Below are positions 47,745 through 52,083 of a DNA stretch of 64,000 nt, one piece after another. Both the position numbers and the translations under genes were made by a program. The stretch is taken from NCBI GenBank assembly GCA_030750765.1, contig JASMHM010000003.1:1-64000 (forward strand), written 5' to 3'. Under the pieces are notes generated by a model, which saw only the letters and a program-made list of their open reading frames with translations, was not told the DNA's origin and did no database searches. Within the stretch, counting starts at the first letter, position 1. Each line of letters begins with the position of its first letter. This DNA is from Candidatus Woesearchaeota archaeon (GTDB lineage Archaea > Nanobdellota > Nanobdellia > Woesearchaeales > ARS49).

Positions 47745-47834
47745 ATAAGTCGAGACTAGGGGTGTCCGTTTATATATGTTTACCAAAATTCGCTTATCCA
47801 AAGTTTTTTAAAATACGGGCGGTTGCGGACTGCC

Positions 47835-49421
47835 ATGGCAAAAGTTGTCGCAGAAAAATTGGCCACAAAGCACAAAGAAGTCAGTGTTGCTGAATTCTTT
47901 GAACGCAACAGACACTTGCTAGGCTTTGACAACAAACGCAAGGCATTGCTGACTGTTGTTAAGGAAGCGGTAGACAACGCTATCGACGCCTGTGAAGAGG
48001 CAAAAACCATGCCTGAAGTCAAGGTAGACATCATTGAGATGAGTGAAGATCGCTTCAGGGTCATCGTGGAAGATAACGGTCCAGGCATCGTAAAAAAGCA
48101 AATTCCTAACATTTTTGCCAAATTGCTGTACGGAAGCAAGTTCCACACCATGAAACAGAGCCGAGGCCAGCAAGGAATAGGAATTTCCGCAGCAGTGCTG
48201 TACTCACAACTCACAACAGGAAGACCTGCCAAGATCGTCTCTAAAATATCTAAAAGCCATGACGCACATTACTACGAATTACACATTGATACACGAACAA
48301 ACAAGCCAGAAATCGTCAAAGAAGAGGTCATAAAGTGGAAGAAGGATAGAGGTACTAAGATAGAACTGGATATCGAGGCCAGCTACCAAAAAGGGGACCA
48401 AAGTGTGGATGCCTACATCAGGAGTACCGCAATAGTGAATCCCCATGTCAGCATAGTCTACACCAACCCTAAAGCTGAACAATTCGTGATGGCAAGAGTG
48501 GCAGAAAACCTTCCTAAAGAGGCAAAAGCCATCAAACCCCACCCCTACGGAGTGGAATTAGGCATCTTATTGAAGATGGTCAGAAATTCTGACTCTAGAA
48601 GCGCCCAGAGCTTCCTTACCAACGAGTTTTCAAGAGTGGGACCTGGAACAGCCAAAGAGATACTCTTCAAGTCAGGAATAAAACCTGCAACAAAACCTAA
48701 AGATCTAGCCCTCCCCCACGTCGAGGCCATGATGAAAGCCATCAAAGACACCAAAATCATAGCTCCACCAACGGATTGCATCGTTCCTATAGGGAGAGAA
48801 TTGTTAGAAAAAGGACTCAAAAAAGAGGTTAATGCAGAATTCTACTCCAGCGTCAGTCGAAGCCCGCAAGTGTATCGCGGTATTCCTTTTGTTGTAGAAG
48901 CAGGCATCGCCTACGGAGGAGAGCAACCCGCAGATAAGAGTGCCAAACTCCTACGATTTGCCAACAGAGTACCATTATTATTCCAACAGAGTGGAGGGGC
49001 CAGTTTCAAAAGTGTGGTGCAAACAAATTGGAGAAGCTACGGCATGAACCAAAGTTCAGGCAGTTTGCCTCAAGGACCCATCACGATCGTTATACACATG
49101 GCAAGCGTGTGGCCACCTTTTACGTCAGAAGCCAAAGAAGCCCTAGCGCACTATCCAGAAATCATCAAGGAAATGAAGCTAGCCTTGCAAGAAGCAGGTA
49201 GACAAGTAGGCATCTACGTGAACAAACAAAAGCGTGCCAAGCAAGAACAAGAACGAGTTAACATTTTCGAGAACTACATTCCCGAAGTCGCAGCATCCCT
49301 CAACAGGCTCACCGGCAAAAGCAAGGAAGGGATTGTAAAAAACATGCGCGTGATGTTGAAAAAATCCAAAGAATTCATTGAAGCAAACAAAAAAACACTC
49401 AAAGGAGAAGTAGATGAATAA
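47835..49421 (+). CDS. top6B: type 2 DNA topoisomerase VI subunit B
   Basis: LTVVKEAVDNAIDACEEA, VIVEDNGPGI, SRGQQGIGISAAVLYSQLTTG GHKL motifs. Confidence 0.97.
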   Translation: MAKVVAEKLATKHKEVSVAEFFERNRHLLGFDNKRKALLTVVKEAVDNAIDACEEAKTMPEVKVDIIEMSEDRFRVIVEDNGPGIVKKQIPNIFAKLLYGSKFHTMKQSRGQQGIGISAAVLYSQLTTGRPAKIVSKISKSHDAHYYELHIDTRTNKPEIVKEEVIKWKKDRGTKIELDIEASYQKGDQSVDAYIRSTAIVNPHVSIVYTNPKAEQFVMARVAENLPKEAKAIKPHPYGVELGILLKMVRNSDSRSAQSFLTNEFSRVGPGTAKEILFKSGIKPATKPKDLALPHVEAMMKAIKDTKIIAPPTDCIVPIGRELLEKGLKKEVNAEFYSSVSRSPQVYRGIPFVVEAGIAYGGEQPADKSAKLLRFANRVPLLFQQSGGASFKSVVQTNWRSYGMNQSSGSLPQGPITIVIHMASVWPPFTSEAKEALAHYPEIIKEMKLALQEAGRQVGIYVNKQKRAKQEQERVNIFENYIPEVAASLNRLTGKSKEGIVKNMRVMLKKSKEFIEANKKTLKGEVDE

Positions 49422-50490
49422 GACAAGAAAAGCGATCGTGGACTTAGGACAAGATCTGGTAAAAAAAATCGAAAAGAAAAAACAACCACAGATCATCGTA
49501 CCAGTACGCGCGCTATCCAACGTCATCTACAACAGGAAAACAAAACAACTAGAATTAGGTAATAAAAAATCAGAAAGACAGTTCTTTAACGTTGCCCATG
49601 CTAAAAAATTCTTGCAAACCTTAGAGATAGCCGCCATCAGCAAAGAGCTCATGGAAGAGACCAAGCACGCGAGCTTGCGAGACGTCTTCTACATGGCCAA
49701 ACGCACCATCCCGAATACCGACACGAATATCGTCGACGAACAAAGCGAAAGTGACAAGGCCATAGAAGATTTGGAATTGATCACTGGCGGAAGTAGAGAG
49801 CAGTTACATGTTAACGCTAACAAGAACGGAAGTGTTGCAGGAAAAGTCACCATTGTTGACAAAGGAGACACCATCCAATGGGATAAGATGGGAAGTGGAG
49901 GTTGGAGCATACCCTCCAACGTTGAAGAGATAAAGTTCAAGAAAATGCAAGCAAAATATGTTCTGTACATGGAAAAAGCAGCCGTGTGGGAAAGATTGCA
50001 TGAGGACAAATTCTGGGAAAAACACAAATGCATCATCATGAGCTCACAAGGACAGACCACCCGAGGAATTAGGAGGTTGTTGCAACGATTGAGCAGCGAA
50101 CACAAGCTCCCCATCTACGTCCTGGCAGACTTTGACCCGTACGGAGTGTACATCTACTCCGTCATCAAGTACGGAAGCATCAACCTTGCGCACATGAGCG
50201 GCAAGATGAGCATTCCAAGTGTAAGATTCCTGGGCATCACAGCAGACGACATCATAAAATACGATCTCAAAAAACATTTTATCAAGCTCAAAGACATCGA
50301 CATCGCACGCTTGAAGCAAATTGGAAATTATGAATGGTTCAAAGACAACAAACCATGGCAACGCCAGTTCAAGATGATGAAAGACTTCGGCGCCAAAGCA
50401 GAAATCCAAGCCCTGAGCAGCAGAGGCATCAGCTTTATTTCTGAAAAATATCTTCCAGAGAAGATCAAAAAGAACGAAGTGATCGACTAA
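49414..50490 (+). CDS. top6A: type 2 DNA topoisomerase VI subunit A (Spo11-like)
   Basis: LRDVFYMAKRTIP catalytic Tyr region; SSQGQTTRGIRRLLQRL, YVLADFDPYGVYIYSVIKYGS. Confidence 0.97.
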   Translation: MNKTRKAIVDLGQDLVKKIEKKKQPQIIVPVRALSNVIYNRKTKQLELGNKKSERQFFNVAHAKKFLQTLEIAAISKELMEETKHASLRDVFYMAKRTIPNTDTNIVDEQSESDKAIEDLELITGGSREQLHVNANKNGSVAGKVTIVDKGDTIQWDKMGSGGWSIPSNVEEIKFKKMQAKYVLYMEKAAVWERLHEDKFWEKHKCIIMSSQGQTTRGIRRLLQRLSSEHKLPIYVLADFDPYGVYIYSVIKYGSINLAHMSGKMSIPSVRFLGITADDIIKYDLKKHFIKLKDIDIARLKQIGNYEWFKDNKPWQRQFKMMKDFGAKAEIQALSSRGISFISEKYLPEKIKKNEVID

Positions 50491-50523
50491 AGACTTAAAT
50501 ATTCTAAGTGTTGATCGAACCGC

Positions 50524-51774
50524 ATGGGTAAGCACGAAACCTCAGTTCTTGCAATCGTCGCCATTGTTACCATAGCAACGATAGGCCTTCAGGTAGACAC
50601 CCAACTTACCGGGCACAACACCTTCGCTGACTACGCCACCCTTTCAGACTACTGTCCTCAACCCAAACAAATAGATACTGATTGTTTTGATAGCTGCTCA
50701 GACTGTGGTGAACCACCCGTGAATACGTGTGAAGAAGAGTTTATGGACTGCTACGAATGCGGAGAGTCACCTTTGAACATGTGCGAGCCAGATATGGGCT
50801 GCTACGAGTGTGTCATGGCACCCGAAAACAACTGCATGGACCAATACACGGAGTGCTCAATGTCTTGCCCTGTGGCAGAGTACGAACCGTGCTGGATGAA
50901 CCCAGATCCAGAAGACATGGATGGTTGCCACGACCGCAACCAACAACGGGCAGAGGCTGCGAATCGCCAGTGTAATAGAATCATGGAAGGTTGCGACAGG
51001 GAAAACGAAGCCTGCGAGCAGGCTGCGCAAGAGGCTCAGGATAGACATAACGAACACTGCACGAGGGTTTCTGAAGGCTGCATGCCAGAGGAAGCAGACT
51101 GCGAGCTCGCCGCACAGCAAGAACAAGAAGAACACAACCGGCAGTGTCAAGAACAGTCTGATGAATGTCAGCGACAGAAAGACCAGTGCAATCACGATCA
51201 CAACAGCGCAACTAACGCGTACAACGACCGTTGCACAGCCAAAGCTAGAGAATGCACAGAACAGTGCTGTGGCTGCAATGAAGACACAACCGAATGTGGG
51301 GATACCTGCTGTGGAAACGGAGAAGTCTGCAATAACGGGGAGTGCGAGCCCGGCTGTCCGAGAACAGACGCAGATGGAAACAGGGTGAAAAAATGTGGTC
51401 AAGGATCCGGACTTGCCTGCTGCATACGAAGAGACTCTAATTGTGAGATCGTGTACGGTCAAGGCACCTGCATGGCAAAAAATGGTTGCATGGTTAAGTA
51501 TGTCAGCGTCCCTAGTACAAATATTCGATCAGCCATTTCTGCGGAAGCAGAAGACGTTGGTGAAGTTACCCGAGGCACACCCGTATACGTTAAAAGTGGC
51601 GGTAACAGGTACTGGTTTGAAGTGTTCACCGACCGAAAATGCACAAACTCCGCAGGATTCATGTACTTTACCAAACTCGTTAACGAACCGCCAAGAGATG
51701 TAGGCGAACACCCGGCATACGGCGGCGGAATAGAAACCTCAGATCTCGAAACCGGCGGCGCAATTAGAGGATAA
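50524..51774 (+). CDS. secreted Cys-rich repeat protein with SH3b-like C-terminus
   Basis: TG-type N-terminal signal; CxxC-x7-C repeats; C-x6-C-x6-C-x14 ladder; CCGNGEVCNNGECEPGC; SH3b-like TNIRSAISAEAEDVGEVTRGTPVYV. Confidence 0.75.
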   Translation: MGKHETSVLAIVAIVTIATIGLQVDTQLTGHNTFADYATLSDYCPQPKQIDTDCFDSCSDCGEPPVNTCEEEFMDCYECGESPLNMCEPDMGCYECVMAPENNCMDQYTECSMSCPVAEYEPCWMNPDPEDMDGCHDRNQQRAEAANRQCNRIMEGCDRENEACEQAAQEAQDRHNEHCTRVSEGCMPEEADCELAAQQEQEEHNRQCQEQSDECQRQKDQCNHDHNSATNAYNDRCTAKARECTEQCCGCNEDTTECGDTCCGNGEVCNNGECEPGCPRTDADGNRVKKCGQGSGLACCIRRDSNCEIVYGQGTCMAKNGCMVKYVSVPSTNIRSAISAEAEDVGEVTRGTPVYVKSGGNRYWFEVFTDRKCTNSAGFMYFTKLVNEPPRDVGEHPAYGGGIETSDLETGGAIRG

Positions 51775-52010: not shown

Positions 52011-52083
52011 GCGGAGGTACCCAAGCGGCTAAGGGGAGCGCCTGCAGAGCGTTTATTCGGGGGTTCGAGTCCCTCTCTCCGCT
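52011..52083 (+). tRNA. tRNA-Cys(GCA)
   Basis: GCGGAGG...TCTCCGC-T, anticodon loop CTGCAGA, T-arm GGGGGTTCGAGTCCCTC. Confidence 0.92.

Follow-up and report, generated by a model that had tools for sequence, protein, structure and literature searches.

The window, by which we mean the whole 64,000-nucleotide stretch of DNA that was analysed, carries a gene (50524..51774, + strand) for a 416-aa protein with 42 cysteines. Its upstream neighbours, identified by Pfam, encode DNA topoisomerase VI subunits B and A (47823..50490, +), and the 1.14 Mb genome has an archaeal gene content that includes TopoVI A/B and RLI/ABCE1. The gene order is conserved in a congeneric sister species (genome G001), where a 417-aa homolog with 71% identity is encoded behind topoisomerase VI subunit A. 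A putative TATA-like box, CTTAAATATT (50494..50503, +), is found at the same spacing in the two species; in both, the CTTAAATA element starts 30 nt 5' of the ATG, a spacing that would fit a leaderless archaeal transcript.

Conservation of the cysteines in homologs had been set beforehand as a test, and the sole homolog retains 42 of 42, with nine of the cysteine codons synonymously different between the two genes. Among the non-cysteine residues of the cysteine ladder described below, 68% are identical. The dN/dS ratio of the whole gene is 0.30 (NG86) or 0.35 (YN00), and that of the ladder part is about 0.4 by NG86, YN00 being noisy on sub-regions. On sequence grounds, the open reading frame is a real gene. 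A tRNA-Cys gene (gca, window 52011-52083) lies about 240 bases 3' of the 42-cysteine gene, with a tRNA-Glu gene in between; this proximity is probably a coincidence.

The protein begins with a hydrophobic segment (residues 6-23; 50539..50592, +), a signal anchor or signal peptide, which forms a helix over the same residues in a low-confidence full-length model and supports the earlier proposal that the protein is secreted or anchored. The start MxxHExxVLA is common to the proteins encoded at window positions 50524 and 53512. Of the 124 single-span, exported-looking ORFs of the genome, 34 have a Thr-Gly dipeptide behind their N-terminal hydrophobic segment, against about 7% expected, the N-termini at window positions 50524, 53512, 47223 and 59748 being examples; the dipeptide is possibly a sorting or processing motif.

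Behind the N-terminal segment, the modules that the sequence-only reading had described are present, with one reservation. Three C-x2-C-x7-C modules (residues 58-104; 50695..50835, +) place their cysteines at 58/61/69, 76/79/87 and 93/96/104. The ladder is followed by CCGC and a knot-like, cysteine-rich segment, CGDTCCGNGEVCNNGEC (residues 248-322; 51265..51489, +), which aligns with the sister protein and has the pattern CC..G..C..G.C at residues 262-274. The SH3b-like beta domain proposed for the tail (residues 331-386; 51514..51681, +) is tentative: strands are predicted in the low-confidence model, but matches to PF08239 (SH3_3, bacterial SH3) score 16.5 and 20.0 bits, below the Pfam cut-off of 27, and the isolated tail gives an E-value of 8e-4.

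Between these modules lies a 29-residue cysteine ladder (residues 135-249; 50926..51270, +). Recomputed from the DNA, its 12 cysteines fall at residues 135, 150, 157, 164, 179, 186, 193, 208, 215, 222, 237 and 244, exactly as first read, with gaps of 15, 7, 7, 15, 7, 7, 15, 7, 7, 15 and 7 and a period of 29 residues. The periodicity is well beyond chance. Nine pairs of cysteines are exactly 29 residues apart, whereas shuffling the segment 200,000 times gave at most seven. The best repeat lag of the non-cysteine residues is also 29 (p = 0.0014); since cysteines and other residues repeat at the same lag, the ladder is a genuine repeat of 29 aa. It divides into four units, CHDRNQQRAEAANRQCNRIMEGCDRENEA, CEQAAQEAQDRHNEHCTRVSEGCMPEEAD, CELAAQQEQEEHNRQCQEQSDECQRQKDQ and CNHDHNSATNAYNDRCTAKARECTEQCCG, and all four carry an asparagine three residues before the cysteine that closes the x14 stretch (one of these is glycine in the sister species).

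At 3.63 residues per turn the ladder cysteines share one helix face (R = 0.94, where 20,000 random placements reach at most 0.84), as had been claimed, and they recur along that face every two or four turns. A six-frame search of most of the genome (about 1.06 Mb) for helices with cysteines on one face recovered only the 416-aa protein. Outside its cysteines the ladder is very hydrophilic (GRAVY -2.19, with one each of I, L and V), and the cysteine strip is therefore the only plausible core.

Structure modelling agreed with the expectation that the ladder is strongly helical, and predicted two long helices. In the full-length AF2 model (pLDDT 41 overall) helices 132-184 and 190-249 are the most confident part; with the ladder alone, pLDDT is 72 overall and 85-88 in mid-helix, and the helices span residues 129-184 and 190-249. 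These are monomer models built from a two-sequence alignment, and because the alignment holds only two sequences AF2 is not decisive. Both models break the helix at residues 185-189 (G-C-M-P-E; 51076..51090, +), a predicted hairpin turn centred near C186 in which Gly185 and Cys186 are kept in the sister species. C186 is also a centre of symmetry: the positions 179/193, 164/208, 157/215, 150/222, 135/237 and 123/249 each sum to 372, the first five being ladder pairs and the sixth 123/249. A second centre, with a sum of 401, likewise yields six pairs. Because a periodic ladder is symmetric about several points, its symmetry alone is no proof of a fold; the turn modelled at 185-189 picks one among them.

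Several lines of evidence thus bear on how the ladder is held together, and we consider it somewhat probable (about 0.55) that the protein is a disulfide-stapled helical-hairpin stalk, anchored N-terminally in the membrane, on the cell surface. The sequence-only reading had left the choice between a disulfide-stapled and a metal-loaded structure; the former is favoured because the AF2 turn falls on a symmetry centre, the hydrophilic helices have no other core, the protein has cysteine-rich knot modules and the genome encodes a VKOR, whereas the metal-loaded alternative finds no homology to the copper-storage proteins (Csp). The middle of the protein would form a long antiparallel alpha-helical hairpin, turning at residues 185-189, in which a disulfide ladder stands in for the hydrophobic core. 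Five staples (Cys 179-193, 164-208, 157-215, 150-222 and 135-237) would face each other across the helices, with C186 in the turn and C244 and CCGC leading into the disulfide knot. The result would be a stiff, protease-resistant hairpin of about 8-9 nm, serving as a stalk or spacer that presents the SH3b-like C-terminal end. We infer the disulfides, their pairing and the stalk function from the evidence above; a role as adhesin or stalk is suggested only by the anchor, the modular cysteine-rich make-up and a giant relative described below.

Other arrangements are possible, including other registers of the hairpin, an up-down four-helix bundle and a disulfide-linked parallel dimer. In the four-helix bundle, built of the 29-residue units, the helices would centre on C135/C150, C164/C179, C193/C208 and C222/C237. 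The chain would turn at the middle cysteines 157, 186, 215 and 244 (near G156/C157, C186 and C215), and two CHCH-like hairpins, 135-179/150-164 and 193-237/208-222, would be tied by 157-215 and 186-244. Such a bundle would let all 12 cysteines pair, in both species residues 156 and 185, each just before a middle cysteine, are glycine, and Csp show that a 29-residue, 7-7-15 cysteine period is possible in an up-down bundle (fold: PMC5171941). We regard it as unlikely: the AF2 helices run unbroken for 55-60 residues and break only at 185-189, and residues 214 and 243 are not glycine. The one-face placement of the cysteines, at 3.63 residues per turn, would suit a straight parallel pair equally well, and hence a parallel, disulfide-linked dimer of one long continuous helix that forms a coiled-coil rod; the break at 185-189 in both AF2 models, which were monomer runs, and the conserved Gly185 speak against this rod, and we find it improbable.

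The genomic context is relevant to the disulfides of the favoured hairpin. VKOR is a disulfide-forming enzyme, and the genome encodes one (C8:370529-370903; PF07884, E = 1e-22), as do the sister species and, in all, 14 of the 30 genomes searched. Another ORF, which is membrane-anchored and contains the motif WCPHC, resembles a thioredoxin-type partner, although a Pfam search of it gave no match. Because both genes are present in the genome, disulfides are favoured over metal, and VKOR with the thioredoxin-like partner would form the disulfides during export. Counting against the favoured reading is a second, non-homologous one-face ladder protein of the same order (L231, below), from a genome in which a search detected no VKOR. 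The genome also contains an ORF (G000:C9:114664-115365) that has multiple membrane spans and CxxC in its C-terminal stretch, and that by eye resembles a heavy-metal transport/HMA fusion.

Should the ladder instead bind metal (Cu(I), Zn or a toxic metal), its thiolates would line a helical bundle as in copper-storage proteins. A scan of genome contigs with an 8-cysteine ladder DNA pattern, the matches being translated, did recover Csp/DUF326, with cysteines that include the same 0-7-14-29-36-43 positions; among the matches listed, the translations were low-complexity, knottin-like or Csp, and Csp/DUF326 was the only other helical ladder. Csp resemble the ladder in their cysteine-lined helices, with a subset of cysteines at 7-7-15 spacing and a 29-residue period, and their cysteines point into the core of a four-helix bundle (PMC5171941). 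They differ in their extra CxxxCxxC cysteines, and the window protein is exported. The ladder gave no DUF326 match at E<=10 (a Csp control scored 38.6 bits), hhalign of the ladder against a Csp alignment returned a probability of 3%, and the ladder has single cysteines with gaps of 7 and 15 only, whereas the Csp alignment has invariant cysteines at 4/3 spacing. Since the profiles do not match and the CxxxCxxC sets are absent, the ladder is not a Csp. Export to an oxidising location, knot-type cysteine modules and a genome with VKOR also argue against metal binding, which we consider improbable.

Alpha-hairpinins are antiparallel helical hairpins with Cys-Cys staples between the helices. CHCH proteins likewise form a helical hairpin with two interhelix disulfides (PMC12114033). 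The predicted hairpin, if stapled as proposed, would share with both the antiparallel arrangement and the interhelix Cys-Cys bonds, but they have two staples and short helices and the window protein has a 12-cysteine x6/x14 ladder on helices of 55-60 residues. The spacings are x6 and x14, not the C-x9-C of the CHCH (twin CX9C) proteins, and Pfam gave no CHCH match. In mechanism, the ladder protein is likely a variation on the disulfide-stapled helical hairpin.

Protein, profile and pattern searches, which covered 98 relatives, 359 genomes from the order and 370 from the phylum, found no full homolog beyond the sister species; they gave otherwise weak knot or ladder matches in the order and phylum. 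The 29-residue repeat, which the sequence-only reading had proposed to seek across the group, is confined to one genus in the 359 genomes of the order, and by these searches the protein is a genus-restricted orphan. Pfam gave only the sub-threshold SH3_3 match in the tail, NCBIfam no meaningful match and a PDB sequence search no match, so that no described repeat family was found in any of the three. Foldseek against PDB returned, among the matches listed, only generic two-helix hairpins (best E 1.3, TM up to 0.57, for HlyD). For the coiled-coil hairpins of solved structure (iSH2, HlyD and Smc), there was no significant fold match among those listed and no PDB sequence match. A literature search found no paper combining DPANN with cysteine-rich surface proteins, and the Woesearchaeota papers found were unrelated. 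The first impression of an unrecognised architecture held, in that no known family was found.

A related cassette does occur within the genus. Both species encode a giant cysteine-rich protein with FG-GAP repeats (G000:C12:46466-62137 and G001:C27), which a profile (HMM) comparison matches to the 416-aa protein at E = 3.4e-5. It resembles the 416-aa protein in its related CxxxC-x7-C modules, in a helix of the form C-x6-C-x14-C, and in a second helix that ends in C-x6-C-x3-CCGC and leads into the same knot. In the protein of the present genome (G000), C-x3-C-x7-C is followed by ESC-VNAEVA-C-HEREEEANIQNREV-C-MND-C, where x6 and x14 are the ladder spacings; in both species, a helix with C-x21-C-x6-C-x3-CCGC leads into a CG.TCC..G..C..G.C knot as in the 416-aa protein. 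Unlike the latter, the giant protein is several thousand residues long with FG-GAP repeats, and its ladder is limited to a single short unit, its amphipathic helices are longer and it lacks the 29-residue repeat. Judged by these motifs, the cassette recurs there in degenerate form. Because the giant protein carries a related cassette in both species, the 416-aa protein is probably best read as a stand-alone form of a surface cassette specific to the genus, with its helical unit multiplied in tandem. A single in-frame TAG (locus L218, about 10690; G000:C12:50690) splits the giant gene into ORFs of 1408 and 3789 aa, and the corresponding region of the sister genome has no stop and reads through; the TAG may be a nonsense mutation, an error or a recoding.

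Another family of the order has a one-face cysteine ladder of its own, in a 178-aa exported-looking orphan (L231:1366-1899). Its cysteine gaps are 4, 11, 11, 14, 14, 7, 7, 7, 7, 22 and 7, and one-face placement is reached in 0.02% of random placements. Like the 416-aa protein it has an N-terminal anchor, looks hydrophilic and helical and carries its cysteines on one face, but its spacing is heptad, with no 29-residue unit and no knot or CxxC modules. The two proteins show weak similarity (E 0.007) and are non-homologous, and searches with the orphan as query returned only proteins without cysteine ladders. A tentative and rather doubtful extension is that the order has repeatedly evolved exported 'cystine-core' helical hairpins as rigid surface stalks, the 29-residue ladder and the L231 heptad ladder representing two origins.

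If true, such 'cystine-core' helices would be a structural class not described before. Provided that its cysteines are disulfide-bonded, the ladder would be a long rod of two helices, almost devoid of a hydrophobic core and with evenly spaced staples. Its 7-7-15, 29-residue spacing would then be a natural design rule, one without a match in the Pfam, NCBIfam and PDB searches, and the ladder would offer a compact, testable model domain; it would also point to heavy oxidative folding at the surface of an archaeon with a small genome.
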